Positions 10,210 to 41,748 of a stretch of DNA of 64,000 nt are shown here, piece after piece. The notes under the pieces were generated by a model that saw nothing but the letters and a program-made list of their open reading frames with translations, was not told where the DNA came from and ran no database searches. Each line of letters begins with the position of its first letter. Positions within the stretch are counted from its first letter, which is position 1. This DNA comes from Acidimicrobiaceae bacterium (GTDB taxonomy: Bacteria > Actinomycetota > Acidimicrobiia > Acidimicrobiales > RAAP-2): assembly GCA_003142095.1 (NCBI GenBank), contig PLON01000016.1:1-64000 (forward strand), read 5' to 3'. The translations under genes were made by a program, and so were the position numbers.

Positions 10210-11835
10210 ATGGATAACAGCGTTTCAACCGTCATTTTCAGTGGTGACGTGCCGCGTTCCACGCTCTCCCAGATGTCGACGAGGGGGGCCGTGCGACGGC
10301 TGGCCACTGGTATCTACACCACTGACACGTCGAGTGCACCCGAAAGAGTGGTCCGGCGAGAATGGCGGAGCATCGCAGGACGTTTCTTTCCTGACGCCAC
10401 CATTTCGGATCGTTCCGCTCGGACAGCCGGACCCGTGGAGGGATCGCTGTACCTGGTCTACCCGCACAACGAACGCACGCTTGCCTTACCGGGGCTCACC
10501 ATTTCCCTGCGCCGCGGCGCCGCCCCTCAGCCAAGCGACATCCCCCTGCCGGGCGGCCTGCACCAAGCCTCGCTCGCCCGGGCACTCGCGGAGAACGCCA
10601 TCCCTTCCAGGGCTCGCGGTGGTGCGCTCTCGCGTCGGCTCACCCGCCACGAACTCGGTGAATGGGTCGAGCGTGCTGCGCGATTTGGCGGTGCCGAAGA
10701 GCTCAGTCAGGTACGCGACCAGGCGCGTGCGCTAGCGCCGCTACTCGGAGTGAGCGTTAAGGACGCTGCGGACCTCGACAACCTGATCGGCGCGGCGCTG
10801 GGTACAAGGTCGCTAACCGGCCTCCCGCGCTCACTTCGACAACGTGCGCTCGGCGTACCGTACGACGCAGAGCGAATCGAACGTTTCGACGTGCTGGTTG
10901 ACGCACTGCGGTCTGCCGCCCCCCAGAACCATCCGGCCGCTCCGCTCGAGCCCAGCAGCCTTCCTTTCTACGAGGCGTATTTTTCGAACTACATCGAGGG
11001 CACGGAGTTCACCGTCGAAGAAGCCGAAGACATCGTCTACCGCGGAGTCGAGCCCGCCGGACGACCCCAAGACGCCCACGATGTGCTCGCCACCTTTTGG
11101 CTCTTGAGTGACCTCGTTGAAATGCGGCAACTCGCGGACAACCCCAAAGAGTTCCTCGAACTTCTCCAACAGCGCCACTCCCGGATCATGGACGCGCGAC
11201 CCAACAAGCGCCCCGGACTCCTTAAGGAGCGCGCCAATCAAGCCGGGGCGACCATGTTCGTCGACCCCGACCTGGTTCGCGGAACCCTCATAGAGGGATT
11301 TAGCCGTCTCGACGACCTCGACAGCGCGTGGGAGCGGTCAGTGTACGTGAAGTTCCTCGTGGCCGCGGTGCATCCGTTCGATGACGGCAACGGACGCCTT
11401 TCTCGCATCATGATGAACGCGGAATTGGATGCCGGAGGCCAGTCACGAACGATTATTCCGACAGTCTTTCGTGACGATTACCTCGGTGCCTTACGTCGCT
11501 TGGATCGTGCCAATGATCCCTCTGTCTTGATTGACGCGCTGAGGTTCGCCAACGACTGGACGGCTCGTATCGACTTCGCTGACACCGCCACGGTTCGAGC
11601 ACAATTGGATGCGACCAACGCGTTCGCCGAAGAGGGTGGCACTCGGCGTCTTCAACTACCGCCCTTCCGCCATTTTCTCTTGGCTCGTGACGAGTTACCG
11701 CTCCAAAGAGCGAGAGAACGCGAAGAGATCGATGACCACACCACTGCGCAACGTATCGCCGAGCGTCAACATGCATTCGACGCATCTATGGACTACGACG
11801 GATCGCTCGAGCATCATCCAACGCTTGATTTTTAG
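10210..11835 (+). CDS. Fic/DOC family protein with N-terminal AbiEi-like winged-helix region
   Basis: Fic motif HPFDDGNGRLSR; class II inhibitory-helix motif SNYIEG (S/TxxxE[G/N]); N-term RGAVRRLATGIYTT wHTH-like. Confidence 0.85.
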   Translation: MDNSVSTVIFSGDVPRSTLSQMSTRGAVRRLATGIYTTDTSSAPERVVRREWRSIAGRFFPDATISDRSARTAGPVEGSLYLVYPHNERTLALPGLTISLRRGAAPQPSDIPLPGGLHQASLARALAENAIPSRARGGALSRRLTRHELGEWVERAARFGGAEELSQVRDQARALAPLLGVSVKDAADLDNLIGAALGTRSLTGLPRSLRQRALGVPYDAERIERFDVLVDALRSAAPQNHPAAPLEPSSLPFYEAYFSNYIEGTEFTVEEAEDIVYRGVEPAGRPQDAHDVLATFWLLSDLVEMRQLADNPKEFLELLQQRHSRIMDARPNKRPGLLKERANQAGATMFVDPDLVRGTLIEGFSRLDDLDSAWERSVYVKFLVAAVHPFDDGNGRLSRIMMNAELDAGGQSRTIIPTVFRDDYLGALRRLDRANDPSVLIDALRFANDWTARIDFADTATVRAQLDATNAFAEEGGTRRLQLPPFRHFLLARDELPLQRAREREEIDDHTTAQRIAERQHAFDASMDYDGSLEHHPTLDF

Positions 11836-24500: not shown

Positions 24501-25684
24501 GAAGCCTCATTGCTGAAGCTGGTGGTGAACAATGGCGCGAAGAAGTCTTTAATACCGGAGAATTCAGGGATGTGACTCTGATCCAGAATACTGCCCGTTG
24601 GGTGTTCGACATGGAACCTCGCTATACGGTCGCTCTTCTGGTACTCCAGAAGACTGGAGCGCCCGCCACAAAGGTCGGCTTGGCCGGTCCATTTGCCACA
24701 AGGCTTGAGTTTGACTCTGGATCTCGCGAGCCTCTTCCCACATTTCCAGCAAGAGAGTTCCGCACCTGGGGCACCGGTGCCGCGTTCCCGGTTCTCTCCT
24801 CTGTGAAAGATGGTTCCGTCTACCAAGTGATCAAGAGTCACCCACGCTTAGATGCCGATGTCGGGAGTTGGCGCGCGCGCCCATACGCCGAGTTCCATGC
24901 CACTGCGGACAAGCCGTTATTCAATCTTGACTCTGTCCCTCCAGGCTGGTGTCCGCTTTACAAAGGAGAGTCTTTCAACATTTGGAACCCTGACACTGGC
25001 GTCTATTACGGCGGAGTTGATCCAAAAATTGTGGTGCCGCTGCTATATGAAAAACGGCTCCGTACCTCGCGAATGAAGAAATCGCCATTTATTGAGTTTC
25101 CCCGTTCGTCGATCATGGATCTCAAGACACTGCCATTCCTTAATCCGAGAATCGCGATAAGACTTGTATCAAGGGCAACCGATTCCAGAACCGTTCTGGC
25201 CGCCTTAGTGCCGCCATCAGTTGGACTCACCCATGGAGCCCCCTACCTTCTCTTTCCAAGGGGTTCAGAGCGAGACGTAGCGTTTGTGCTCGGCGTCCTT
25301 TCTTCTATCCCGCTTGACTGGATCGCTCGCCGCACTGTGGAAGTGAACTTGACGTACCACGTGATCAACGGCTTCCCGATGCCTCGACCTGTTGAATCGG
25401 ATGTTCGCCGTAGCCGGATTATTGCCTTAGCCGGTCACTTGGCAGCTCGAGATGATCGCTTTGCAAAATGGGCAGAAGTTATTGGCGTCCCTGTCGGCTC
25501 TGTCGAAACGCCAGAGCAACAAGCCAACATAGAAAACGAACTTGATGCATTGGTCTCCTCCCTCTATGGGCTCTCACGGGATCAGGTCGAGCACGTGTTC
25601 GCAACCTTCCACAGAGGTTGGGATTACCGATCTCGGCTGACAAAGGTTCTCGAGTATTTCGACCGAATTGGGGCTGACCAATGA
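21503..25684 (+). CDS. Very large class I SAM-dependent N6-adenine DNA methyltransferase (Eco57I/DrmMI/PglX-like); start uncertain, probably downstream of 21503
   Basis: Motif I VADLAMGSGHFL, motif IV FDVLVGNPPWEKLKV, flanking Type ISP/Eco57I-like helical regions; stop overlaps the next ATG (ATGA). Confidence 0.88.
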   Translation: MSVLALRNYQQRQTFKDIPSTSPNNQNRASFFVITPCTTSHLLLVIVTSIELRSEQYIEWSRPSGLPNGFETQYVYTCRQGESASPPMEIAVLHFSPAGEPSRQALTRVHTLRVNQRVTPVVIATILANDTVTLFGPNTAVTPTRPLPLGQAERILQAVLDEVNPVAARARLTGLLQSLDTTSIPGVKNSGLFANHELLNGVPKRSDWADSCLTSRTLLSLREHELVEQLGYSTKGAGAHALVLKGSGPRPEAIAVLLNETENFDTDSHRFSVSPVAYGLKMAEQEGVPWLILVRGGQLRLYPARIDLGVGRKGLAETFLEIDLPQLTDNTAGYLSLIFSAQALTGGGSAFQIMATSSQYAVALGARLRDKVYEEIVPHLSLAVARQLGVHNYAMDAEGLDLAYQLTLRIFFRMLFQVYAEDRKLLPYGENEKYDRNALKTVAHDLVENPDQEFDAESCSLWDDLAQVWRVIDTGDKAWGVPAYNGGLFASDPELNEHGAIVSELSITNDVIGPCLRALLLDRSDDGEYGPIDFRSLSVREFGTIYEGLLESSLGLAEVDLTLDGDGTWLPAAIGDQVEAAAGEVYFHNTSGQRKGTGSYFTPSFVVEHLLQRALDPALDDHLAKVAQQLAAGDQASAAEMFFEFRVADLAMGSGHFLTSAIDHIEQKMASFLEEDGHQIPGVSKEIILLGNAALEAMGDHESAPPEGSSLLRRQIARRCIYGLDINPIAVELARVAIWIHTFVRGLPMSSLDHNLVCANSLTGIGSIDEALDVLVPGRNGAATFFDAPIEDALRSAQNVLAEVALMPEADRKQTQAASRAIKRARREAEQARLLFDGAILKRIGRTDLIKGEDPQTISKDADLMEAQIAIAPLIPGHMPMLFPEVFLRENAGFDVLVGNPPWEKLKVETSRWWALRFPGLRSLPQGEQDQLIDKLRIERPDLATEIDADIRVNELARAALVAGPFPGIGKGDPDLYQAFSWRNWQLLRNHGRIGIVMPRSLIAEAGGEQWREEVFNTGEFRDVTLIQNTARWVFDMEPRYTVALLVLQKTGAPATKVGLAGPFATRLEFDSGSREPLPTFPAREFRTWGTGAAFPVLSSVKDGSVYQVIKSHPRLDADVGSWRARPYAEFHATADKPLFNLDSVPPGWCPLYKGESFNIWNPDTGVYYGGVDPKIVVPLLYEKRLRTSRMKKSPFIEFPRSSIMDLKTLPFLNPRIAIRLVSRATDSRTVLAALVPPSVGLTHGAPYLLFPRGSERDVAFVLGVLSSIPLDWIARRTVEVNLTYHVINGFPMPRPVESDVRRSRIIALAGHLAARDDRFAKWAEVIGVPVGSVETPEQQANIENELDALVSSLYGLSRDQVEHVFATFHRGWDYRSRLTKVLEYFDRIGADQ

Positions 25685-28600
25685 GTAGTGATGAAAGACG
25701 GCCATTCCCTCCTGTATTTGCAACGAACCACCCTGGAACAGGCGATACTGTCGCCGGCGAGATTAATCGACTTCTTGCGGGATTGAGTACAACATATGCC
25801 GACCCACCAACCCTCGCTTTCGCCACTGCCTACATGAACCCCCAAGGTTTTGTTCTGATTGCTGATGAGGTTGAAAAGGCACCGCGAGTCCGTCTTCTCT
25901 TGGGTGCGGAGCCGGAAGAGCCATATCGCACCCAGCAAGAACGCGGCCAGAATGTTGCATTCGATGCCGTGGCCAAAGTTCACCTTCAGGAGCTGGAAAG
26001 AGACCGCGACCTCCTTGGATTCACCGCCCACTCTGACGCAGCCGCGCGGCGACTTGTCGACTGGTTGCGCTCGTTCGATAGCGCGATGGAACCACGAGTC
26101 GAAGTGCGTCGTTTCACGAAGGGCTTTCTCCACGGTAAGGCGTACATCGCTGATCATCCAATGATGCCCGCAGTTCTCGCCGGGTCGTCGAACCTGACGC
26201 TGGCGGGCTTGTCGTGGAATCGTGAGCTGAATCTGGGTTACCCGTCCGGCCAACACACTGGCTTAGTTATTGACTGGTTCAATGAAATCTGGGAGCAATC
26301 GGTTCCCTTTGATCTTGCTGCTCTCTACGAAGCTCGGTGGCAGGCCCATACTCCGGGCGTTGTTTTCCTTCGCATGCTTTACGAACTCTACGGCGACGCA
26401 CCCAATATGAGTGGAGTAAAGATCGATCTTCCGGTCACGGAGTTCCAGCGCGATGGTATTCGCCGCGCTCAACGAATTCTGGATGAACTCGGCGGCGTGC
26501 TCGTCTGCGATGAAGTCGGGCTCGGCAAGACCTTCATCGCCGGTGAATTCATCAAGCAAGTGTCTCAACGTGATCGGCAAAAGGTCCTCATTGTTGTCCC
26601 CGCAGCGCTGAAGACATCGACCTGGGATCCATTCTTGCGGCAGTTTGACCTAATCTCGGCCAGAGTCGAGGTAGTCACGTACGACGATGTGCGCAATGGC
26701 ACGAAACGCGGTGTGACGTCCGATGAACTCGACGATTATGCACTCGTGGTAATTGATGAAGCGCACAACCTTCGCAATCCGAAAACACTGACAGCAGAAG
26801 CCGTAATGAAACTGTTGTGGGGCGAGCATCCGAAGAAAGTATTGCTCCTCACCGCAACACCGGTAAACAACAGTCTCCGCGATCTCCAAACGTTGATCAG
26901 CTACTTCGTGCGCAACGATGCCCAGTTCGCCCCCATTGGCCTCCCGAGCATTATTGACTACATCAAGGCCGCACAAGCGCAAGATCCCGACACCCTCTCA
27001 CCACAACATCTCTTTGACTTGATGGACAAAGTCGCCGTACGGCGGACTCGGCGATTCGTGAAACAGGCCTACGCGAACGACCGAATCTTCAATAACCGTG
27101 GAGAGCTCGTACCAGTGGAGTTCCCAACGCCATCGGTCCACCGTATTGAATATGAACTCGACGCCGAGGCCGACGACCTGGCCGAGAAGGTTATGTACGC
27201 GCTCGAGGTTGGTGACGACGAACACCTGGTAATCCGTTCTGGCACTCACCGCGACCCTGATCGCCTATCGCTCGCCCGCTACGCTCCGAGCGTCTACAGC
27301 TTCGACTCCGATGTTGACAGTCTCCAGGTGACCAACGTCGGACTGCTCCGAACGATGCTGCTCAAGCGTCTGGAGTCCTCAACGGCGGCGTTGGAGGTCA
27401 CACTGCGTCGTCTCATCACGTCGCATCACGCATTCACCCGGGGACTAACCGAGGGTTACGTCATCATCGGTGACGCTCTGAAGGACTTCGCTTCATCCGA
27501 CGCCGAGTCCATCGATGAGTTTCTCGAAGGTCTTGACGAGAAGGGTGTCGAACAGGTGGCACCTATATCGGACTTCAACGTTGGAGCTCTCTCTATTGAT
27601 GTCGATGGGGACGTAGAACTTCTTGAAGAGCTTCACACCCTTTCCCTTCAACGTCTCGAAGTAGGTCCTGACGCCAAGCTCCTGGAACTCGTGGAGGACC
27701 TCATTCGCATCGCCGAGGCCGCTGCCCTGCCCGACCGCGACGGCGTTGAGGAAGCTGTCCGGCGCAAGGTCATCATCTTTTCGACGTACGCTGACACGGT
27801 CGTTGACGTGCACCGACGCCTCGCTGAAGCGATCGATCGAGCGCCGAAGAAGTCACCACTCGCGGCCTACAAGGGGCGTCTAGCTCCAGCCGTATTCGGT
27901 GCCCAGGGCAGTGAGGCCCAACTCGAACGGGCCCAGGTGTTAGCCGCGTTCTGTCCGATGACGGCCGGTGAACTAGACGAGACAGGTCGTCCCCGGTCGA
28001 AGGACCGTTATGACATCTTGGTGACGTCCGATGTTCTTGCCGAGGGCGTGAACCTTCAACAGGCTGGACGTATGGTGAACTACGACCTGCCATGGAACCC
28101 CATGAAACTTGTCCAGCGCCACGGTCGTATCGACCGTATTGGATCGCCGCACAAGCGCGTTACCATCGACTGTTTCTTCCCGGCCGAAAACCTGGACCGA
28201 CTCCTGGGTCTCGAGGCGAAGCTACAGCGAAAGATTGCGTATGCCAATGCCGCCGTGGGAGTGGGCAACGTTTTGCCCAGTCAAATTGCCGACCCCACTG
28301 TGGAGGTCCTGCTTCACGACGTTCGAGCGGACATCATTGATCTCTATAACGAAGATCCCACAATCCTCATTGAAGGTGGTGGTAGCGAAGCCATCTCTGG
28401 TGAGGAGTACCGACGTCGATTGAGCAAAGCGTTGGAGATGGCCAACGTCAAGAGAGAGGTTCTCGGATTGCCGTATGGGTCCGGCAGTGGTTTCCATTCC
28501 GCCAAAATCAGTCAACCCGGATACGTCTTCTGTGTTCGAATCGGTGATGAAGAGAAACCTTGGTTCCGCTTCGTGCCCGCTGATCCTAAAACGTGGGAAC

Positions 28601-29130
28601 CGGTGCGAGACATTGACGGAAATGCTGAAGTCGACGACGACACCTTGACTTGTCTGATTGCTGCCGATCCCGGAACAATTAGTGGCGTGCAAGACATTAG
28701 CGAGCAGGCACTTGCGCAGGTCTTCGACGCTTGGGAGGTGGCACAGAGCCACGTCTACGACCTTTGGACGTTTCTCACAGACAAGAGCAACCTCGAACCG
28801 AAGATTGAGAAAGCACTTCGCGACGCGTACGAGTTAGTAGCAGAGAACGGTGGTTTCCTCGGACCGGCTCGTCAAGACGAACTTCTGGCCAAGCTGAATG
28901 GCCGTTGGAGCAGTGGCGTAGTCAAAGCTGTGCGCAAGATTTTGCGATCCGACGACCTATCCGTGAAAGAGAGAGTCCAAGGTCTCCTTGACTTTGTCAC
29001 TGAGTCTGGCATTTCGATACCCGAACAGCCCAAGCCACTCAAACCGGTCCGTCGTGAAGACATTCGAGTGGTCTGTTGGGTGGCAGTGTCACCGGATTCC
29101 AACTACAAGCCTTCGAGGATCTCGAATTAG
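25681..29130 (+). CDS. PLD-like nuclease domain fused to SNF2-type helicase
   Basis: N-term PLD motif FLHGKAYIADHP...AGSSNLTLAGLSWNRELNL; helicase LVCDEVGLGKTFIAGEF, ALVVIDEAHNLRNP, LLLTATPVNN, SDVLAEGVNLQQAGRMVNYDLPWNPMKLVQRHGRIDRIG. Confidence 0.92.
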   Translation: MSSDERRPFPPVFATNHPGTGDTVAGEINRLLAGLSTTYADPPTLAFATAYMNPQGFVLIADEVEKAPRVRLLLGAEPEEPYRTQQERGQNVAFDAVAKVHLQELERDRDLLGFTAHSDAAARRLVDWLRSFDSAMEPRVEVRRFTKGFLHGKAYIADHPMMPAVLAGSSNLTLAGLSWNRELNLGYPSGQHTGLVIDWFNEIWEQSVPFDLAALYEARWQAHTPGVVFLRMLYELYGDAPNMSGVKIDLPVTEFQRDGIRRAQRILDELGGVLVCDEVGLGKTFIAGEFIKQVSQRDRQKVLIVVPAALKTSTWDPFLRQFDLISARVEVVTYDDVRNGTKRGVTSDELDDYALVVIDEAHNLRNPKTLTAEAVMKLLWGEHPKKVLLLTATPVNNSLRDLQTLISYFVRNDAQFAPIGLPSIIDYIKAAQAQDPDTLSPQHLFDLMDKVAVRRTRRFVKQAYANDRIFNNRGELVPVEFPTPSVHRIEYELDAEADDLAEKVMYALEVGDDEHLVIRSGTHRDPDRLSLARYAPSVYSFDSDVDSLQVTNVGLLRTMLLKRLESSTAALEVTLRRLITSHHAFTRGLTEGYVIIGDALKDFASSDAESIDEFLEGLDEKGVEQVAPISDFNVGALSIDVDGDVELLEELHTLSLQRLEVGPDAKLLELVEDLIRIAEAAALPDRDGVEEAVRRKVIIFSTYADTVVDVHRRLAEAIDRAPKKSPLAAYKGRLAPAVFGAQGSEAQLERAQVLAAFCPMTAGELDETGRPRSKDRYDILVTSDVLAEGVNLQQAGRMVNYDLPWNPMKLVQRHGRIDRIGSPHKRVTIDCFFPAENLDRLLGLEAKLQRKIAYANAAVGVGNVLPSQIADPTVEVLLHDVRADIIDLYNEDPTILIEGGGSEAISGEEYRRRLSKALEMANVKREVLGLPYGSGSGFHSAKISQPGYVFCVRIGDEEKPWFRFVPADPKTWEPVRDIDGNAEVDDDTLTCLIAADPGTISGVQDISEQALAQVFDAWEVAQSHVYDLWTFLTDKSNLEPKIEKALRDAYELVAENGGFLGPARQDELLAKLNGRWSSGVVKAVRKILRSDDLSVKERVQGLLDFVTESGISIPEQPKPLKPVRREDIRVVCWVAVSPDSNYKPSRISN

Positions 29131-29181: not shown

Positions 29182-29631
29182 TTATGCGGATTGCTTGCTG
29201 CGACGTCCAATCCGAATCAAACGGTTCGCCTCAGCTAAACGTATGTATCTAAAACTCTGGGGCGGAGCAGATTCGCCTAGACATTTTCTGACCTTCTCCA
29301 ACGGCACTGGAATGTCAAATCGCAGCGGACTTGCCACCGTAATCGCGACGCCATGATCCTTTCCCTTAAGGTAGTCCGCCAAAGTAGTCCAACCTAGGCC
29401 GGTGGACACGCCGTGAAGATTCCAAATTTCTCTTGGCGTCCCAGTTGAAATGTTCTCGACAATGCAGGTTCCAAGTATTTTCTTTACGGGAGAACTTGCG
29501 TACACGATGACAAGGGTGCCGGGAGAAGCTTTCGGGCGAATGCGCCTTAGCTCAACGGTCTTTTCACCTGAGATAATCATCTCGGCGAACTCTGGCCGTA
29601 ATGATAGAAAAAGTGCTTGCTTAGACGCGTC
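29182..29631 (-). CDS. ASCH (PUA-superfamily) domain protein
   Basis: QALFLSLRPEFAEMIISGEKTVELRRIRPKASPGTLVIVYASSPVKKILGTCIVENI; start set at MDASKQ (downstream of ORF-track start 29655). Confidence 0.8.
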   Translation of the reverse strand, partial: DASKQALFLSLRPEFAEMIISGEKTVELRRIRPKASPGTLVIVYASSPVKKILGTCIVENISTGTPREIWNLHGVSTGLGWTTLADYLKGKDHGVAITVASPLRFDIPVPLEKVRKCLGESAPPQSFRYIRLAEANRLIRIGRRSKQSA

Positions 29632-31675
29632 CATGCATTCCTCTCTCGTAGACAATATCGAAGACCCTGTCAGGCAACTTCTGTGGCGACCTTAGGGCAA
29701 CCCTGTAACCGCAGTTCTCGACAATTTCAAAAAACTCTGAATGAGGAATCGGGAACTTGAAAACCTCTGTATCCGAGAAACGAATCGCCATCAATGTCCC
29801 GCGCTTAGCTCCCATTTTGAGTATTTGCTCTCGTTGATAGACCCCAAGGCGACTGAATCTCCGATATAGATCAAGTGGTCGACCCACAGCAACCTCTTCG
29901 ACTTTTGACGTCGCCCTGACTGCACCTGTTCCTGGTCGCTTACGCTCGTGCGATACATACCAAAGAATTCGAGATGGCGGCCCGAACTCACCGCGGGCAG
30001 CACCACTGTAATAAACGTGTTCTCTCGAGATTCCGAGATCGTCGTTGCGGTTGAAAAGAGTTCCAGAACTCAGGTCGGTGTCAAAGAGTTGCTCAGCCCA
30101 CACCGGCCTGATCGGCACAGAATATGTGGGGACTCGAGAATCGGCAACCTTTAAGGGAGCAAACCGCCTTTCGAGTTCCAATATTTCCGAGGAAGTCAGT
30201 TGCTCGAGACGAAGTTTCGGGATAGCAACATCGACACCGAGTTGCTTCGGCAATGGAGTGAGTTGAGACATGGCGTGTGCAACACTGATGCTTGGTATGT
30301 GCTTGTCGATTGCGACTGACCACCACTCTTTTTCCGCCTCAACGAAGCCCTCAGAAATCAAGCCTTCCGGGAGTTGAGGCGACAAGTTTTGATCTGAGAT
30401 AACGAGAGTTTCGGCACCATTTCTGAGAGCGTAGTCACGTAAAACGTGTGCTACCTGTCGAGCGATAGTTCCAGCATAGGAACCTGCAACTCGAAAAAGT
30501 GAGACATTCGCTCGACCCTCCCCGCACGATCGAGCAACCAATGCAACTGCCTTACCGTCAGACCTGAGTACAAGCATTTCCCAATGCAGCGGATCAGATC
30601 GGCATTGACGAAGATACTGAGAGAATTCCTTCTTTCTTTCACCCGCTGCGCGATTCGAAAATACTGCATATAGCTCATCGTCTTCCTTGGGACTCGGCAC
30701 AAAGAACTTGAACGTAGTGTTCTCGATTGACGATGGCGCGTAAGGACCGGCCGTCTGGCGCCACAAATCTGCTAAGAGATCCGCTGGTGTTCCTATTTTT
30801 AACTGGAACAGCTCCCACGCCGATACTCTAAAGCGACGAATTAGGTCATTGTCCCTTGACGCGAAAAGTCCGACGTGGGCCGCCGCAGCTCGAGCGACAT
30901 GCTGCAGGTCCAGTTGACCATGGGCAGAAAGTTTCGGCCTACCGATCAACTGATGTAATTGCAACTCGGCTTCCTTCCAATCGTCAGATGCCGTATCGGC
31001 ACGTGCGAATCCGGTTAACTGTGCTCGGCGGCGTTTGCGTACGGCTGCATCTTCATGGTGACCAAGTTCCTGATTGACTGTCTTTGTCACGACTACTCGG
31101 GCTACGTCAACGACCCAGTCGGAGACAAGAGCTCGACTTGCGGCGGACTCCGGTCGATCCTCTACTAAGTCAATGAACACATCGGTGTCGACAGCGATGC
31201 GAAGTCGGTGCTCCTGATCTGCAAACATCGTGAAGAGCGTCGGATGGCCGAAGTCAAGCCACCACTTCGTTAGAAGCATGCCTTCGCGACCACGTCCGGG
31301 GCGCTCATTTACCGACTCAAAATCAAGCCGGGGCCAAAGACGATGCGCATCGTAGTCATTTCTACAGTTGACTAATATCCCGTCTTGTTCAGAATGCCGA
31401 GCCCTTAGTTCAGCGACCATCATCGGAGCAACTCCCTCGCCTCGATGCGCCGAATCAATGCATAGATGCGCAATAACAATTCGTCGAAGCCTAATGTCGT
31501 ATAGGAGGTAGCCCACGATTTCATCGCCGTCGACGGCGACCAACAATGTTCCGGCTCGGGCACGCTCTTCGAAAGCACCTTTTGGCATAAATCCGAGCGT
31601 CTGACTGTTTGCTCTGTAGAGCCCTAGAACAACATCCATTCGCGCATACTCATCGCCGATGTCTTCAATCTTCAC
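29621..31675 (-). CDS. Multidomain protein: GNAT acetyltransferase - PIN nuclease - second GNAT-like - C-terminal ASCH/EVE-like (PUA) region
   Basis: GNAT: IVIAHLCIDSAHRGEGVAPMMVAEL; PIN: RIAVDTDVFIDLVED...NQEL...DLQHVARAAA...SRDNDLI; middle TIARQVAHVLRDYALRNGAETLVISD; C-term ILWYVSHERKRPGTGAVRATSKVEEVAVG. Confidence 0.78.
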   Translation of the reverse strand: MKIEDIGDEYARMDVVLGLYRANSQTLGFMPKGAFEERARAGTLLVAVDGDEIVGYLLYDIRLRRIVIAHLCIDSAHRGEGVAPMMVAELRARHSEQDGILVNCRNDYDAHRLWPRLDFESVNERPGRGREGMLLTKWWLDFGHPTLFTMFADQEHRLRIAVDTDVFIDLVEDRPESAASRALVSDWVVDVARVVVTKTVNQELGHHEDAAVRKRRRAQLTGFARADTASDDWKEAELQLHQLIGRPKLSAHGQLDLQHVARAAAAHVGLFASRDNDLIRRFRVSAWELFQLKIGTPADLLADLWRQTAGPYAPSSIENTTFKFFVPSPKEDDELYAVFSNRAAGERKKEFSQYLRQCRSDPLHWEMLVLRSDGKAVALVARSCGEGRANVSLFRVAGSYAGTIARQVAHVLRDYALRNGAETLVISDQNLSPQLPEGLISEGFVEAEKEWWSVAIDKHIPSISVAHAMSQLTPLPKQLGVDVAIPKLRLEQLTSSEILELERRFAPLKVADSRVPTYSVPIRPVWAEQLFDTDLSSGTLFNRNDDLGISREHVYYSGAARGEFGPPSRILWYVSHERKRPGTGAVRATSKVEEVAVGRPLDLYRRFSRLGVYQREQILKMGAKRGTLMAIRFSDTEVFKFPIPHSEFFEIVENCGYRVALRSPQKLPDRVFDIVYERGMHGRV

Positions 31676-31725: not shown

Positions 31726-31802
31726 CGTAATTGGTTTTGTTTCGGAGTACCTTCATTCGCGTCCGATACGCTCATCTCGTGGCTGCCAAAACGAACAGTG
31801 AG

Positions 31803-32732
31803 ATGGGGACTCTAGTCTTCGGAAACCTGAAAGACGCATGGCCGGGAGAGGCAATTGACTTCACTCCTCTTCTTGCTCATCAGGTCGACGCCATTGGCGT
31901 CGCCATCGGTGTCGAGCTCGCGCCGATCGGTGCCACCGAAGTCCAAACAGCCGGCAGCCGTCGGATCGACATCCTCGCCGACGGAGCCGACGGGACAAAC
32001 TTCGTTATCGAGAATCAGTATGGAGCGCTCAATCATGACCACCTCACCCGGGGGCTCGCGTATGCAGTAGCTGCTCACGCCCGGGGACTTATCGTCATCG
32101 CCGAGAAGCATCGCGACGAGTTCCGAGAGGTAGCGCACTATCTCAACGAGCTTCGCGATAACGATCCCGAGCGCGGGGTTGCCGTCTGGCTCGTAGAAGC
32201 CAAAGCTGTGAAAATAGGCGACAGCGCGTGGGCACCTTTGTTTCTTCCTGTGGTATCACCCAACGAGTTTGCATCTGCCGTAGTTCTCGAACAAACGGCA
32301 ATTCGTCGCAGGTTGGCCCGTGAGGAATTCGACAGACTCTTCGCATCCGATGAGATTCACGAGGCAGTAGGCAAACTCCTCGATGGATGGGACAATGCTG
32401 ACCGTCGTCACCGCATCATGGCGAGCCCTGCTCAGGCGGTCCTTGAGTGTCGCGGTCCTGGCGTCGGTGGATGGCGAGCCGTTATCGGCGTCTATCCCGA
32501 CGGGAAGGTCAATGTACCCTTCGGCTCGTACAAAGGGCTGAACAGCGGTCTAGCGGTTGAGGATCTCACCACCGAAGAGTTCCGCGCCCGCGCGAACATG
32601 CTGTTCGGCTTCGACGGCACAGAGGTTCAAGCCAAGACTGAATCAAGTTGGATATCGGCGTCTCGTTTCAGTGCGCTTAGGGACTTCGCTGACGAAGTTG
32701 CAACGGCATTTGTAAAGGCGACAATCGAATAG
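31803..32732 (+). CDS. DUF4268-like predicted PD-(D/E)XK nuclease
   Basis: RRIDILADGADGTNFVIENQYGALNHDHLTRGLAYA (D...ExQ variant active site) plus C-terminal DUF4268-like tail. Confidence 0.68.
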   Translation: MGTLVFGNLKDAWPGEAIDFTPLLAHQVDAIGVAIGVELAPIGATEVQTAGSRRIDILADGADGTNFVIENQYGALNHDHLTRGLAYAVAAHARGLIVIAEKHRDEFREVAHYLNELRDNDPERGVAVWLVEAKAVKIGDSAWAPLFLPVVSPNEFASAVVLEQTAIRRRLAREEFDRLFASDEIHEAVGKLLDGWDNADRRHRIMASPAQAVLECRGPGVGGWRAVIGVYPDGKVNVPFGSYKGLNSGLAVEDLTTEEFRARANMLFGFDGTEVQAKTESSWISASRFSALRDFADEVATAFVKATIE

Positions 32733-32846: not shown

Positions 32847-33485
32847 TCAGACGACACTCGCGCCCTTTCGACGATTGCAAGGTCCGCACAGTATTTGGAG
32901 ATTATCGACAGTATTTGCGCCACCCATGCTGACCGGAATCAAGTGGTCGTATTGCAATTCACTTTTGTTACCGCATGACCTACAGGCTCCCCCGTCACGC
33001 TCCCAGACCGAGTGGCGAACGGCTCCGGGAATGGACTCTCGGAGCGATCCGTCCGGCAATCGTTTTGCAGCAGCGACCGTCTTCGCCTCGCTAAGTTTCT
33101 TCTCGTTTCGGAGGTCGTAAGCAATAACAAGCGACCGAACTTCGTCGCCATCATGCCCGTCAGAATCGGTAAACCATCGGCTGTCGTATCGCCAGTAGTT
33201 TCGATCGCCAACTGTCAAGTATTTAACTGGCATTGATTTCGAACGTTCAGCCATTGACTTTATGTCATCCCGAGTCGCTCTTCGATCGCTGTAGAGCTTT
33301 TTCTTTCCGATTTGGAGATAGCACCTGTATTTGCCAGACAGCAGGCTAATTCCGTCTCGTTCAAAGTACGATTCGCAATTGTCAAGACGACGTACCATTT
33401 TTCGAACCTTCCAGTTTCTCTCGGAATTAAGTTTCGCAGATCGACATCGCTCGGGCGTGGCTACCAAGAAGTTACTTACTGCCAA
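32847..33485 (-). CDS. HNH endonuclease
   Basis: VRHSVWERDGGACRSCGNKSELQYDHLIPVSMGGANTVDNLQILCGPCNRRKG. Confidence 0.88.
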   Translation of the reverse strand: MAVSNFLVATPERCRSAKLNSERNWKVRKMVRRLDNCESYFERDGISLLSGKYRCYLQIGKKKLYSDRRATRDDIKSMAERSKSMPVKYLTVGDRNYWRYDSRWFTDSDGHDGDEVRSLVIAYDLRNEKKLSEAKTVAAAKRLPDGSLRESIPGAVRHSVWERDGGACRSCGNKSELQYDHLIPVSMGGANTVDNLQILCGPCNRRKGASVV

Positions 33486-34858
33486 TTCGTGCAGGGCCCG
33501 ACGATTCCGTCAGAACATATTGTCGAATTCGTAGTGACCGCTGTACTCGTATCAACTCCAGTGAACTGAGCACCAGTGAGATTTGCTCCGGTCATGTTCG
33601 TACCGGTCAATCCGGCATCGACGAAGCTGACGTTCGTAAGTGCGGCGTCAGTAAGGTTAGCGCCAGTCAAACTGGCTGCGGCGAAGCTGGCGTCGTCGAG
33701 ATTCGTACCAGCCAGATTGGCGTTGGCAAGACTTGCGTCAAAAAAATAGGCGCTCGCAAGATCGGCATTTGAAAGATTGGCATTGTCAAGGTCGTGATTG
33801 AAGAAACCTCCGCCGGCCAGATTCGCGTTAGAGAGATCGGCGTAGGGACCAACCAAATATCCCAATACCACTGACCAGTTCTCTGGGAGTGTTGGGCTTC
33901 CCGTGATCGACCCAGAGGTGACTCCAGAAAGATTTGCACCCGTAAGGATCGTCCCCTGCAGGTCGGTATTGGATAGGTCTGTGTTGGAAAGATTGGCTTG
34001 AGCGAGATTGGCATCTGGACCGACCATGAACCCCGCAGCCATTATCCAACCAGTCGGCAACAACGGAACGCCGGTGACAGAACCTGAAACGACACCCGAA
34101 AGTGTGGCGCCGTTCATTCGAGTTCCAGAGAGATTCGAACCGGTGAGAACCGCCTTCGAGAGATTGGCGCCAGGTAAGTTAGCCCCCTCTAACAAGGCAC
34201 CAGTCAAGTTCGCTCCCGTGATGTCAGCGAGGGATAGGTTGGCGCCCTTTAGATTTGCGCTTGCGAGATCCGCGCTCGGTCCAACGAGATAGCCATTAAC
34301 GAGCCTCCAATGTGCTGGAAGGACTGGAATACCGACGATGGAGCCAGAACTGACGTTCGATAAGTTGGCCCTTGTCAATCGCGCAGCGAGGAGATCGGCG
34401 CCTGTGAGATTCGACCCGGAAAGTCGAGCGCCCGTCAAGTTGGCCCCAGGTCCAACGAGGTAACCACTTGTCAGACTCCAGTGTGCTGGGAGAAGCGGTG
34501 TGCCGGCCACTGAACCGGATACGACGCCCGAGAGAACCGCTCCATTCAATCGTGTGTTGGAGAGATCCGTGAGCGACAGATTTGCACCGGTCAGCAATGC
34601 TGATGTGAGCCGGGCATTCTCAAGGTTCGTGCCCTTGAGATTTGCACCGGACAGGTTCGCTCGTACTAGGTCGGCACCCGCCAAGTTGCGACCACTCAAA
34701 TTGCATCCAGCCAGATCAACGGATGGTCGAAGCGCCACATGACAACTCTTCCCGCTTGCACCGGCATCCGACGGACCTGATGAGAAAGTGAGGCCTGCCA
34801 CGATGGCAGAGCCGAACAGCAGCCATGACACGGTCAACCTAACAAATGGCATCCGCAT
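33476..34858 (-). CDS. Secreted pentapeptide-repeat protein with periodic inserts
   Basis: Signal-peptide-like MRMPFVRLTVSWLLFGSAIVAGLTFSSG; extended A(N/D)LxxANLxG repeats; inserts SGS(V/I)xGxPxLPxxWxxxxGYLVGP repeated four times. Confidence 0.85.
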   Translation of the reverse strand: MRMPFVRLTVSWLLFGSAIVAGLTFSSGPSDAGASGKSCHVALRPSVDLAGCNLSGRNLAGADLVRANLSGANLKGTNLENARLTSALLTGANLSLTDLSNTRLNGAVLSGVVSGSVAGTPLLPAHWSLTSGYLVGPGANLTGARLSGSNLTGADLLAARLTRANLSNVSSGSIVGIPVLPAHWRLVNGYLVGPSADLASANLKGANLSLADITGANLTGALLEGANLPGANLSKAVLTGSNLSGTRMNGATLSGVVSGSVTGVPLLPTGWIMAAGFMVGPDANLAQANLSNTDLSNTDLQGTILTGANLSGVTSGSITGSPTLPENWSVVLGYLVGPYADLSNANLAGGGFFNHDLDNANLSNADLASAYFFDASLANANLAGTNLDDASFAAASLTGANLTDAALTNVSFVDAGLTGTNMTGANLTGAQFTGVDTSTAVTTNSTICSDGIVGPCTNWQ

Positions 34859-35016
34859 CAACAACCCCCAAGAGCGTGAGTCAACTCTAACTCCGGTTGA
34901 ATGTTCAGCCTCAATAACACCTTTCCAGATTTCGGAATATTTAGACGTCCGATGGTCCAGTAGTGCTTGGACGCAGCCGGAGAGATCGAAGTTCTCGACC
35001 ACTTTTGTCCCACGAG

Positions 35017-35925
35017 TCAACTGGCGTTCAAGAACTCCGAGAATCTCTCTTCAAGTCGATCCTTGTCTGGATGCGCTGCTACTCGCCGAGGAAGATTGAT
35101 GCGAGATCCATGCATCTCTTGGAGTCCGTGCTTAAGCATCGGTCCATCGACTTCATGAAGAAGCCTCGGACTAATGACGACGCGGAAGTCTTCACGAATT
35201 CCCATCATGTTCTGGTCGAATGCGGCGTGGTGAATCTTGCACAGTGCAATTCCATTTGGAACGACAGGATCGCCGTGGGGCTTGGAGTCGTCAATGATAT
35301 GAGCTGCATCGAGCAATTCTGTGTGAGCCAATCTGCACACCGCACAAGAAGATCCGTACGCATTCATGACCTGCTCTCGGAAGATCGGCTGATGAAGTCT
35401 GGCCCGCGTTTCCCTTAGCACGTATCGCTTTTCCAGCGCCCGGGTCGACGAATCACTGCGAGAAACCTCAGTCCAGTTGAACCAAAGGGTGAACTCTGAT
35501 CGATTCGAATCCTCGCCGACTATGAAAATTGGATACACGGGAAAATAAGTTCCCCTTCGCACACCAATGAAGTAAACGAGGGGCAACCCCGTATCTCTGC
35601 AGGCTCGAAGCGCTCGATTGGTGAAGGTATTGGGATCCGTGCCTTCGTATTTGTATCGCGGATAGCCATCGTCACCTTCTAGGTCTTCATAGGGAGGGAG
35701 GCGTCCAAACGGTGTGAACGCGGTGGTGATCGATAGTGCTGCGTCCAGTCCTGAAGGTTTGTTGATTCCACGACCGCGAGTCTGTCGGATCACGAACCTC
35801 TCCTCGCCAAAGGTGAATGAATCCGTTTGATCCCATCGCAATGTCCCATCGGTCGAACCGATGAGTAAATCATCAAGATGAGCGAAGAGCGCCGACCTAA
35901 CCGCGAGCTCACGCACTTCGTCCAT
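35017..35925 (-). CDS. HNH_2-type endonuclease, restriction-like
   Basis: MNAYGSSCAVCRLAHTELLDAAHIIDDSKPHGDPVVPNGIALCKIHHAAFD. Confidence 0.85.
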   Translation of the reverse strand: MDEVRELAVRSALFAHLDDLLIGSTDGTLRWDQTDSFTFGEERFVIRQTRGRGINKPSGLDAALSITTAFTPFGRLPPYEDLEGDDGYPRYKYEGTDPNTFTNRALRACRDTGLPLVYFIGVRRGTYFPVYPIFIVGEDSNRSEFTLWFNWTEVSRSDSSTRALEKRYVLRETRARLHQPIFREQVMNAYGSSCAVCRLAHTELLDAAHIIDDSKPHGDPVVPNGIALCKIHHAAFDQNMMGIREDFRVVISPRLLHEVDGPMLKHGLQEMHGSRINLPRRVAAHPDKDRLEERFSEFLNAS

Positions 35926-36045: not shown

Positions 36046-37137
36046 ATGCCGATTGAAATGGCCATATGGCGCATCACTCCAAACGGGCCAAAGCCGCTGG
36101 ACTCATCGCGGCTCGGCTTAGAGTCAACGCTCGAGGACATGATCGTCGAAGATACGAAACTTCTCGGTTCTGATCTGCTAGTCGTCGGTAGGCAAGTTGA
36201 GACAGCATTCGGCGGTTTTCTCGATCTCCTGTGCATTGATGCCGATGGGCGTTTACATGCCCTGGAGCTCAAAAGGGACAAGACGCCTAGGGATGTCGTC
36301 GCTCAAGTTCTCGATTACGGATCATGGGTCTCTGATCTGACCGTGGAGGACCTTCAGGACATCACTCTCCGATACAACAGTGGAAAAACCCTGGACAATC
36401 TCTTCGCGGAGCACTTCGGCGAAGCTCTCCCAGACGTAATAAATATTGAGCAGCGTTTTACCATCGTCGCATCCGAACTGGACACCACATCCGAGCGATT
36501 AGTTCAATTTTTGGCCGAGACTTACGCCGTCCCGATCAATGCCGTGTTCTTTCGACACTTTGGCGATGGCGAATCGAGCTACTTAGGAAGAACGTGGCTG
36601 ATTGACCCGATCGTTGCAGAGTCCTCTACTTTGCGCCCGGTAAGAGGGAAAGTGCGGCCTTGGAACGGAAGGGACTACTACGTTATTCAAGGGACCACTG
36701 TTAAAGAAGGTATTGACAGGTGGTCGATTGCAAGTGATTACGGATTTCTCAGTGCTGGTGGAGGAACCTGGTATTCCAAGCCCCTCAGGAATCTGAAAAC
36801 TGGCAACAGGGTCTTCGCATATGTCGGAGGAGCCGGCTACGTCGGGGTTGGAGAAGTTATGGGTGAAGCCGAGCCAGCTGCAGATGCGAAAGTTGTAGTC
36901 AACGGAGTAGATCAACCACTAATCGATCAGCCTGGAATACCGGATGCTTTCAAACACAGAGCACTATCCAACGAACTCGATGAGCGGGAAGTCGTGGTCC
37001 CAGTCCGATGGCTCGCCAAGAGGTCTGTGACCGACGCGATTCGCATAGCTGGACTGTTCACTTCTCAGGTCACAGTGTGCAAACTTCGCGACGAACGCAC
37101 TATTGAAGTTCTCGAAGAGGAGTTTCAAGTTAAGTGA
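36046..37137 (+). CDS. NucS/DUF91-like PD-(D/E)XK nuclease fused to C-terminal EVE/PUA-like domain
   Basis: Nuclease core FLDLLCIDADGRLHALELKRDKTPRDVVAQVLDY; EVE-like DRWSIASDYGFLSAGGGTWYSKPLRNLKTGNRVFAYVGGAGYVGVGEV. Confidence 0.8.
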   Translation: MPIEMAIWRITPNGPKPLDSSRLGLESTLEDMIVEDTKLLGSDLLVVGRQVETAFGGFLDLLCIDADGRLHALELKRDKTPRDVVAQVLDYGSWVSDLTVEDLQDITLRYNSGKTLDNLFAEHFGEALPDVINIEQRFTIVASELDTTSERLVQFLAETYAVPINAVFFRHFGDGESSYLGRTWLIDPIVAESSTLRPVRGKVRPWNGRDYYVIQGTTVKEGIDRWSIASDYGFLSAGGGTWYSKPLRNLKTGNRVFAYVGGAGYVGVGEVMGEAEPAADAKVVVNGVDQPLIDQPGIPDAFKHRALSNELDEREVVVPVRWLAKRSVTDAIRIAGLFTSQVTVCKLRDERTIEVLEEEFQVK

Positions 37138-38508: not shown

Positions 38509-41500
38509 TCAGGCCCCGACGCGGCTCGTCCGGCGGACATCGGCGAGGGCCACGTGGCAGGCGGCAAGTTGATCCGGCGCCACCTCGCCCAGCTGAGGCG
38601 TGACGGTCTTGCACTCTTCAATGGCGTACGGACAGCGGGGCTGGAAACGGCACCCGGGCTTGGGGTCCACGACCTTCGGCGGTTCGCCGGCATCGACCGT
38701 GGCGAATTCGTCAAGGGGCGTGCGGGGATCAGGAACCGCGGACAGCAGGAGCTTGGTGTAGGGATGTCGAGGGTCGGTCAAAAGTTGCTCGGTCGGGCCG
38801 ACCTCGACGACGTGGCCGGCGTACATGACGATGATTCGGTCAGCGATGTATCGGGCCGAAGCGAGGTCGTGGGTGATGTAGAGGATGGAGACGCCTTCGC
38901 GTCGGCGAAGATCGGCCATGAGGTTGAGGACGCCGACGCGAATGGAGACGTCGAGCATCGAGACCGGCTCGTCGGCGAGAATGAGTTTGGGACGGAGCAC
39001 CAGTGCCTGAGCGAAACCAATCCGCTGGCGCTGGCCGCCGCTCAGTTCGTAGGGGTACTTCTGGAGCATGTCCTCGGCGGGCTCGAGACCAACGGCTTCC
39101 ATCACGCGCACCGCCTCGGAACGCCGAGTCGACGCGTCGAGGTCCGGCCGGTGCAGCTTGATCGCGCGCATGATGCCGTGCGAGACCCGATAGGAAGAGT
39201 TGATGGCGCTGTAGGGGTCCTGAAAGACCATCGGAACCTCACCGCGGTACGCCAGCTTCGCCTTGCGCCCCTTGATGTCGTTGACCGGCTGGCCGTTGAA
39301 GCGAATAACCCCCGAGCTCGGCCGGTACACCGACGCCAGCAGTTGCGCGATCGTGCTCTTGCCGCTCCCACTCTCGCCCACCAACGCAACGATCTCGCGC
39401 CGGCCGATCGTAAAGCTCACGTCGTCGACGGCGTGCAGGAGCTTCTCGGACCAGAAGCCTCGCATCCGAAAGGTTCGCGTCAAGCCTGACACCTCGAGGA
39501 GAGGGACTTCGGGTTCGATGTCGTTGATGCGGTCTGGCGCCGACGGCTGCGCGTCGCTCGTCCGAGATGACAGCTCGGACAACGACGTGGCGTGCGATTG
39601 AGCTACGACACCCGCCGCGTTGTCGTCCACCACTCGATTAGTTCGCCCGGCGAGACTTCGCGTCTCCGCTGTCGCATTTGTGTACAGCAAGCAGCGCACC
39701 TCGGTCCCGCTCACCTTATATATGGGTGGCTCGATGACGGAGCATTCGGGCATGGCGTCAGCGCACCGAGGCTGGAAGCGGCATCCGGGTGGTGGCGTAA
39801 GGAGATTCGGTGGGGAGCCAGCGATGCCGGTGAGAGGGATCTTCTCGCCGCGGATTGAGGGGTACGCCTCGAGTAGGGCGCGAGCGTAGGGGTGGCGCGG
39901 CGTATCAAAGAGTGTTGCCGTGGTTCCGAGTTCGGCCACCTGTCCCGCGTACATGACCATGAGTCGATCCGAGAAGTGCCTCACCAGTGAGATGTCATGG
40001 GTGACGAAGATCACGGCGAAACCGAGTCGGTTCTGTAGCTCCTTGATCTGGCGCATGAGAGAGCGCTGGCCCACGACGTCGAGCGCCGAGGTCGGTTCGT
40101 CCATGACGACAAGGTCGGGCGTGAACAAGAGCGACATGGCGATCATGGCGCGCTGGCGCATGCCGCCGGAGAGCTGGTGGGGATAGCTGTTGAGATGGAT
40201 CGGGTCGATGGACACGAGGCGCAGCACCTCGGCCGAGCGACTCGCGATCTCGTCACTCGACATGGCCGAGTGCGCCTTACAGGCGTCGCGCATCTGTTGG
40301 CCTACGGTCATCACCGGGTTCAGAGCGTTCATCGCGTTCTGCATGACCACCGAGAAGTCGCGCCAGCGGAGGTGGCGGAGCTCACGATCGCTCATCTGGG
40401 CCATCTCCTGACCGCGGAAGGTGACGCTCCCGCCGGTAATTTCGGCGGGCGGAGAGAGCAGGCGGCTGATGGCGAACATCAGCGTCGACTTCCCGCAGCC
40501 GGATTCGCCGACGACCGCCAGGAACTCTCCGCGATGCAGATCGAGGTCGACATCGTCGACGGCCACGATCGGCCCGGCGTCGCTGGCGTAGGCGACCGAG
40601 AGGTTGCGAACCGACAGCAACAGGCTTGACGATGAGTCCACGACATCGCTCTGGCGCGCGACGTCGGTTTCTTCCGAGTTCGAAGAGACGGCGAGCGGCG
40701 GTTCAGCGATCGCGGGAGTCTTTCGGTCGTCTGACGCAACCGGTTCCCGGTCCACGGCGGGACCGAGGTTGGACTTAACGTTTCGTGGGCGCGACCCGCG
40801 ACGAACGGGTCGCAGCGCCGGGTTGGAGATCTCGTCGAAGGCGAAGTTCATCAAGGCGAGCGACCCTCCAAAGAGGGCGAGGCAGACTCCGGGCATAATC
40901 GCCCAGAGAGCCAGTCCCGACTGGAGCGCCGCCTGCTGATAGGACCAGTAGAGCATCGTGCCCCAACTCTGGGCGTTCGGGTTACCGAGCCCGATGAACT
41001 GGAGACCCGCGGCAGTGAGTACAGCGAAAACGGCGTTAAGACAAAAGGCCGCCACGATGAGCGAACTCATGGACGGCAGCATCTCGGCCGTGATGATGTA
41101 ACTGGCGCGCTCGCCGCGAACGCTGGCGGCTTTCAGAAAATCCCGGTTGCGCATCGAGAGTGCTTGGACGCGCAACTGGCGAGCGCTGTAGGACCAGTTG
41201 AGAGCGCCGAGGATGATGATGATGTCGAGCAGTCCGGCGCTACGCAGGTAGGCGGCGATCACAATGAAGAGCGGAAAGATGGGGATGACCAGCAGGATGT
41301 CCGTAAGCGTTGAGAGGATGCCGTCGGTCACGCCTCCGAGGTAGGCGGACGCCACTCCGACGATCACGGCGACGAACGTGGCGATGAAGCCGGCCGCGAA
41401 CGCGATGATCAGAGACTGGCGCGCGCCCCAGATGAGCTGGGAGAAGATGTCCTGTCCGAAGGACGTCGTGCCCAGCCAGTGGGCCGCCGAGGGCGACAGG

Positions 41501-41748
41501 TTCGGCAGAAAGCTCTCCGCGCTCGGACTGTAGGGGGCGATCAGACCGGGAAAGACGGCGAGCACGAGGAAGAACAACAGAAAGAACAGGCCGACTTGGG
41601 CCTTGCGGTTGCGCAGTAAGCCCCGCCACATGGTGTCACCGTGCGAACGCTCAGCGGGCCCGTCCGAGCGCTTGACGCCCTTGTTCTGGCTGGTGACGTC
41701 CGTCACATCCTGCGCGAGTGACTGGTCCGTCTGGTCAGGGTTCGACAT
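38509..41748 (-). CDS. Oligopeptide/dipeptide-type ABC transporter, permease (DppC) fused to two ATPases (DppD-DppF)
   Basis: DppC-like N-term with ALSMRNRDFLKAASVRGER; two Walker A sites GESGCGKSTLMF and GESGSGKSTIAQL; two signature motifs LSGGMRQRA and LSGGQRQRIG; all in one 1079-aa ORF. Confidence 0.92.
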   Translation of the reverse strand: MSNPDQTDQSLAQDVTDVTSQNKGVKRSDGPAERSHGDTMWRGLLRNRKAQVGLFFLLFFLVLAVFPGLIAPYSPSAESFLPNLSPSAAHWLGTTSFGQDIFSQLIWGARQSLIIAFAAGFIATFVAVIVGVASAYLGGVTDGILSTLTDILLVIPIFPLFIVIAAYLRSAGLLDIIIILGALNWSYSARQLRVQALSMRNRDFLKAASVRGERASYIITAEMLPSMSSLIVAAFCLNAVFAVLTAAGLQFIGLGNPNAQSWGTMLYWSYQQAALQSGLALWAIMPGVCLALFGGSLALMNFAFDEISNPALRPVRRGSRPRNVKSNLGPAVDREPVASDDRKTPAIAEPPLAVSSNSEETDVARQSDVVDSSSSLLLSVRNLSVAYASDAGPIVAVDDVDLDLHRGEFLAVVGESGCGKSTLMFAISRLLSPPAEITGGSVTFRGQEMAQMSDRELRHLRWRDFSVVMQNAMNALNPVMTVGQQMRDACKAHSAMSSDEIASRSAEVLRLVSIDPIHLNSYPHQLSGGMRQRAMIAMSLLFTPDLVVMDEPTSALDVVGQRSLMRQIKELQNRLGFAVIFVTHDISLVRHFSDRLMVMYAGQVAELGTTATLFDTPRHPYARALLEAYPSIRGEKIPLTGIAGSPPNLLTPPPGCRFQPRCADAMPECSVIEPPIYKVSGTEVRCLLYTNATAETRSLAGRTNRVVDDNAAGVVAQSHATSLSELSSRTSDAQPSAPDRINDIEPEVPLLEVSGLTRTFRMRGFWSEKLLHAVDDVSFTIGRREIVALVGESGSGKSTIAQLLASVYRPSSGVIRFNGQPVNDIKGRKAKLAYRGEVPMVFQDPYSAINSSYRVSHGIMRAIKLHRPDLDASTRRSEAVRVMEAVGLEPAEDMLQKYPYELSGGQRQRIGFAQALVLRPKLILADEPVSMLDVSIRVGVLNLMADLRRREGVSILYITHDLASARYIADRIIVMYAGHVVEVGPTEQLLTDPRHPYTKLLLSAVPDPRTPLDEFATVDAGEPPKVVDPKPGCRFQPRCPYAIEECKTVTPQLGEVAPDQLAACHVALADVRRTSRVGA

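Follow-up and report, generated by a model that had tools for sequence, protein, structure and literature searches.

What does a 684-aa protein that joins acetyltransferase, PIN and PUA-like domains do beside a small ASCH gene, and does the pair represent a new system or a known one in an unfamiliar arrangement? In the preliminary description of the window (the whole 64,000-nucleotide stretch analysed, from contig PLON01000016.1 of an Acidimicrobiaceae bacterium), these two genes were singled out as the best candidate for an undescribed system. As reported there, a stand-alone ASCH gene overlaps the large gene on the same strand, and both ORFs were recovered. Since the large protein carries an additional N-terminal GNAT domain, we refer to it and its counterparts as long forms. 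The pair is laid out as follows:

29621..31675 (−): GevT-like/PDC-M11A long-form protein, 684 aa, GTG start; order GNAT1, PIN, degenerate GNAT2, PUA-like
31247..31585 (−): N-terminal GNAT domain, residues about 31–143, motif A RGEGVA at 78–83; PF00583, PF13673 and PF13508 above the Pfam cut-off
30836..31198 (−): PIN RNase-like domain, residues about 160–280, with D163, E203, D256 and D275; PF01850 and hhalign alignment to canonical PIN
30311..30706 (−): middle GNAT, degenerate, residues about 324–455; still has the GNAT fold but no longer the acetyl-CoA loop motif (SYAGTIARQ instead)
29624..30196 (−): C-terminal PUA-like (ASCH/EVE-type) domain, residues about 494–684; PDC-M11A (494–647), Foldseek and hhalign
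29182..29655 (−): ASCH protein, GevA/PDC-M11B-like putative antitoxin, 157 aa from TTG 29655 or 150 aa from ATG 29634

The two ORFs overlap by 35 bp with the listed TTG start and by 14 bp with ATG 29634. The latter is preceded by AGAGAGG, a ribosome-binding-type sequence lying inside the end of the large gene, and appears the likelier start.

Between them, Pfam, hhalign and Foldseek bore out the composition proposed for the large protein, namely a GNAT domain, a PIN domain, a second GNAT-like stretch and a C-terminal ASCH/EVE-like region. The N-terminal GNAT was detected at residues 31–133 (PF00583, 34 bits; PF13673, 33 bits). The PIN region (residues 160–280) scored 20.0 bits against PF01850, below the cut-off of 23.6, and is therefore filed as PIN-like, an assignment backed by hhalign profile alignment; the acidic residues that had been picked out in DTDVF, NQEL, DLQH and SRDND correspond to D163 (VDTDVF), E203 (NQEL), D256 (LDLQH) and D275 (SRDND), so that all four acidic positions conserved in the active site of VapC-like PIN RNases are present. 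Structure-based dissection of residues 310–684, using a model with a mean pLDDT of 69, recovered a GNAT fold followed by a PUA-like, ZmASCH-like C-terminus: in Foldseek the middle domain resembled solved GNAT structures, with a TM to target reaching 0.67, whereas the hits of the C-terminal domain were to ZmASCH (best E 1e-7, target TM 0.71–0.78). The second GNAT-like stretch thus held up by profile and by fold, but it does not carry the acetyl-CoA loop motif. A full-length AlphaFold model built from three sequences had a pLDDT of 43 and was not used for inter-domain arrangement.

Proteins of this general kind have been described. Bell et al. 2020 (PMC7641849) reported GNATs that carry an EVE domain at the C-terminus and often a PIN at the N-terminus, and whose operons nearly always encode a second PUA-like protein, ASCH; they predicted a toxin–antitoxin role, noted restriction-modification (RM) neighbours and traced these (PIN)-GNAT-EVE + ASCH modules to Iyer et al. 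2013, cited here as it is represented in Bell et al. In hhalign, a profile built from nine long-form proteins matched the canonical PIN-GNAT-EVE profile over its entire length through residues 157–683, with a probability of 99.7% and E 1.4e-26. The middle region also aligned to the canonical GNAT (85%, E 6e-6). The match from residue 157 to the end indicates that the long form is the canonical protein plus an extra N-terminal GNAT.

Both window proteins were also matched by PADLOC to the phage-defence candidate PDC-M11, the large protein to PDC-M11A (61.8 bits, a partial match whose best stretch is 494–647) and the ASCH protein, which carries PF04266 in Pfam, to PDC-M11B (101 bits). Searching phages with the window ASCH protein (E 6e-21 to GevA) retrieved a pair from the lambda-like coliphage PhiR47_2 (GenBank PV340567.1) that its depositor annotated as 'GevT toxin' and 'GevA antitoxin'. 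GevT and GevA score 443 bits against PDC-M11A and 173 bits against PDC-M11B, respectively, and they show the same overlapping toxin-then-ASCH order as the window pair. Direct BLAST detected no similarity between GevT and the window 684-aa protein, so the link between them rests on the profiles and on the partner. GevT further differs from the window protein in being phage-borne and only 357 aa long, with GNAT-EVE only and neither a PIN nor an N-terminal GNAT; likewise, the PDC-M11 models, 357–501 positions long, have no room for the N-terminal GNAT. GevT-like genes were found in 131 viral contig stretches, and in the best 80 of these an ASCH ORF lay nearby in 78, mostly overlapping by 23–35 bp. 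At the phage loci L135, L139, L140 and L148 the ASCH gene is convergent rather than co-directional. In the literature searched, we found no paper text on GevT/GevA and no experimental study of the pair.

The PDC-M11 matches, the account of Bell et al. and the GevT/GevA annotation together rule out the reading of an undescribed system. Judged by homology, the window pair is a divergent, rearranged long-form member of the (PIN)-GNAT-EVE + ASCH family: it shares PIN, GNAT-like and PUA-like C-terminal domains in one protein, a paired ASCH and an RM neighbourhood, and it differs in its extra N-terminal GNAT, in a middle GNAT without the acetyl-CoA loop, in having no AAA_17 partner and in an ASCH protein without an HTH. 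We consider it probable that the pair is a chromosomal defence-island toxin–antitoxin module, a rare long form of the GevT/GevA family that acts on RNA and is neutralised by its ASCH protein.

To place the arrangement within the family, we compared the window protein with eight other long forms, which brings the set to nine from Actinomycetota, Cyanobacteriota, Bacteroidota and Alphaproteobacteria. They come from plasmids of Calothrix and Nostoc, from Prevotella, an Acidimicrobiaceae MAG (57% identity), Christiangramia, two more Bacteroidota and a Caulobacter plasmid, the last being more divergent. An ASCH ORF lies directly downstream in all nine, and full-length homologues down to 25% identity, each adjoining an ASCH gene, occur in several phyla, indicating that the window arrangement is not a chance one. 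The ASCH ORF that overlaps the end of the Caulobacter plasmid gene (L023:7063-7521) is unannotated, missing from the listed annotation. On a Mesorhizobium plasmid (L075:4004-6317), a single PIN-GNAT-EVE gene has an ASCH gene on either side, the second of which is encoded on the other strand.

All nine long forms possess the extra N-terminal GNAT and have lost the acetyl-CoA-loop motif of the middle GNAT. The glycine loop of the canonical middle GNAT (e.g. RGRKLGE, KGTLRGQ) was found in 12 of 12 aligned canonical proteins and in none of the nine long forms. Consistent with this, Pfam placed a GNAT mid-protein in each of four canonical proteins, with scores above cut-off for three of them, whereas in the long forms scanned it placed one only at the N-terminus. 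Considering that homology spans the domain and that the published definition says 'GNAT-like', the missing loop marks a variant, not a non-member. In a tree of the shared part, the nine long forms fell on one side of a branch with support of 99/98, although the Caulobacter row is very long and its placement therefore unsure; the pairings in the ASCH tree were compatible with the large-protein tree, with weaker support.

The long form is rare. The window genome gave the only full-length match among 398 genomes sampled from the phylum and likewise among 148 from its class, where no close relative was found; in the Bacteroidota sample, 3 of 299 genomes had a full-length match, one of them the starting genome. 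No long form was matched in the collections of phages and viral contigs searched. The term 'GNAT-PIN' does not occur in Bell et al. 2020, and we found no earlier description of an extra N-terminal GNAT combined with a lost middle motif; the architecture may already be drawn in Iyer et al. 2013.

The active sites of the long forms vary. All four PIN acids (D163, E203, D256, D275) are present in the window protein and in those of loci L004, L005, L006, L020 and L021. In the two cyanobacterial proteins the first three are replaced by A, Q and N/K, so that three of four are lost, and the Caulobacter long form has a change at the last position. The N-terminal GNAT motif A, RGEGVA in the window, is similar in most long forms and altered in Christiangramia (RGSKVA), Caulobacter (RGQKLS) and L020 (RKKNIA). 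With PIN acids lost in cyanobacteria and the GNAT loop altered in some Bacteroidota and Caulobacter, neither activity is universal; no long form in this small sample appears to lack both entirely. In the window protein, the front acetyltransferase is apparently working and the usual middle one decayed. One possible account, which we put forward tentatively, is that this lineage moved its acetyltransferase activity: a newly acquired N-terminal GNAT would have taken over from the middle one once that was inactivated. The toxin would then be a dual effector that both acetylates and cleaves RNA, and its antitoxin would mimic the toxin's own RNA-binding domain.

We then considered the ASCH partner. 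Its closest solved structure is that of ZmASCH from Z. mobilis (PDB 5GUQ/5GUS; Kim et al. 2017, PMC5615036), with which it aligns over about 135 residues (phmmer, E 5e-18). ZmASCH was crystallised and found to be a Mg-dependent ssRNase in vitro, with Y47, K53 and S128 implicated; it was characterised alone, and the word 'operon' is absent from that article. All three of these basic-cleft residues are present in the window ASCH protein, and ZmASCH itself scores 100 bits against PDC-M11B, so that by profile a characterised RNase falls in the antitoxin family. ZmASCH may therefore be an antitoxin studied without its toxin. The same facts could be turned round, with the ASCH protein as the RNase effector and the large protein as its regulator, or with both acting jointly. 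However, Gly stands in place of K53 in each of the 44 distinct phage GevA proteins, and the lysine is absent in half of the others, so it is not a family-wide feature (Y47, R32, Y90 and Q127, in ZmASCH numbering, are invariant in 58 of 58 family ASCH proteins), and the GenBank label names the ASCH protein as the antitoxin. We regard an ASCH effector as very improbable.

A different role for the ASCH protein is suggested by YqfB, which belongs to the same fold and is an N4-acetylcytidine amidohydrolase with a Thr-Lys-Glu triad and Thr24 as nucleophile (PMC6972931). By analogy, the GNAT could acetylate a base, for instance at N4 of cytosine, and the acetyl group could be taken off again by the ASCH protein, a scheme that would accord with the DNA base acetylation proposed by Iyer et al. 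2013, as cited in Bell et al. 2020, and with the K and R of the ASCH signature, which the family ASCH proteins keep in common with YqfB. By contrast, the position of Thr24, three after the Lys, is occupied by Glu in the window ASCH protein and the relatives compared, and the nearest solved structure is the ssRNA-cutting ZmASCH, not YqfB. Such a writer and eraser pair thus seems very improbable to us, and because Thr24 is not conserved, a YqfB-like deacetylase was rejected as an identity for the partner.

The surroundings of the pair were annotated next:

10210..11835 (+): Fic-domain protein, 541 aa
21503..25684 (+): type IIG-like restriction-methyltransferase, 1393 aa; PADLOC REase_MTase_IIG, 802 bits
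25681..29130 (+): PLD-SNF2 helicase, 1149 aa, convergent to the pair; PADLOC HKD+Snf2, 152 bits, and Pfam
31731..32732 (+): PDC-S11 candidate protein, divergent from the pair; PADLOC match to the N-terminal half only, no Pfam family
33476..35020 (−): pentapeptide-repeat protein, 514 aa, with an HNH nuclease gene on either side, all on one strand, ends overlapping
35017..35925 (−): HNH_2 protein similar to restriction enzymes for phosphorothioated DNA; NCBIfam 71.7 bits against a cut-off of 180
36046..37137 (+): second PDC-S11 protein, full match, 414 bits, NucS_C domain
38509..41748 (−): ABC permease and two ABC ATPases (oligopeptide type) fused in one ORF, 1079 aa

The pair has a type IIG-like RM/PLD-SNF2 pair on one side and a PDC-S11-like gene, two HNH genes and a NucS_C-like gene on the other. 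It is convergent to the methylase/helicase pair, which ends at 29130, in agreement with the preliminary description; the gene on its other side is divergent as described, but its designation as a nuclease is unproven, given a PDC-S11 match and no Pfam family. The methyltransferase and helicase genes (21503–29130, +) overlap by four bases and look like a restriction/DISARM-like module. Two PDC-S11 candidates (31731–32732 and 36046–37137, both +) lie a few kb apart. PADLOC mad3 matches to 38509–41748 were dismissed as ATPase cross-matches: this ORF encodes a fused oligopeptide transporter and is not a defence gene.

At the related loci L002, L004 and L005, too, the neighbours include RM or DUF262-like genes. 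RM or other defence neighbours at the window pair and at these three loci fit the defence association reported for the family. They would also suit modification-dependent defence without a classical antitoxin. In that case a modified base in invading DNA or RNA would be recognised by the PUA-like domain and the ASCH protein, which would only then license the PIN or GNAT, so that the pair would work like a type IV restriction-like or abortive-infection sensor; elsewhere, PUA, ASCH and EVE domains act as readers of modified bases, and the family adjoins RM systems (Bell et al. 2020, PMC7641849). The fixed overlap of the two genes, typical of toxin–antitoxin pairs, and the toxin and antitoxin labels of the phage pair speak against a sensor of this kind, and we consider it unlikely.

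In the toxin–antitoxin reading that we prefer, the 684-aa protein would be the toxin, or effector. Its C-terminal PUA-like domain would bind nucleic acid, probably RNA, possibly modified, such as tRNA; the N-terminal GNAT would acetylate the bound target, the PIN would cleave it, or both, and translation would stop. The middle GNAT would now serve as a structural scaffold. The C-terminal domain of the large protein is homologous to the ASCH partner (hhalign, 96.1%, E 3e-9), and the ASCH protein could keep the toxin silent either by taking that domain's place in binding to the toxin or by competing with the toxin for its RNA; like ZmASCH, it may itself bind or cut ssRNA. Here toxicity, the antitoxin role, the RNA target and the role in defence are what we infer from family homology and the GenBank annotation.

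Members of the family occur widely in both phages and bacteria, and the homology between the toxin C-terminus and ASCH, together with the family link to ZmASCH, makes these mechanisms directly testable. Furthermore, natural losses separate the possible activities, since PIN acids are lost in the cyanobacterial members, the loop of the N-terminal GNAT is altered in some of those from Bacteroidota, and the PIN domain is absent from the phage members. A small comparative panel drawn from these natural losses could therefore reveal which domain is the toxin.
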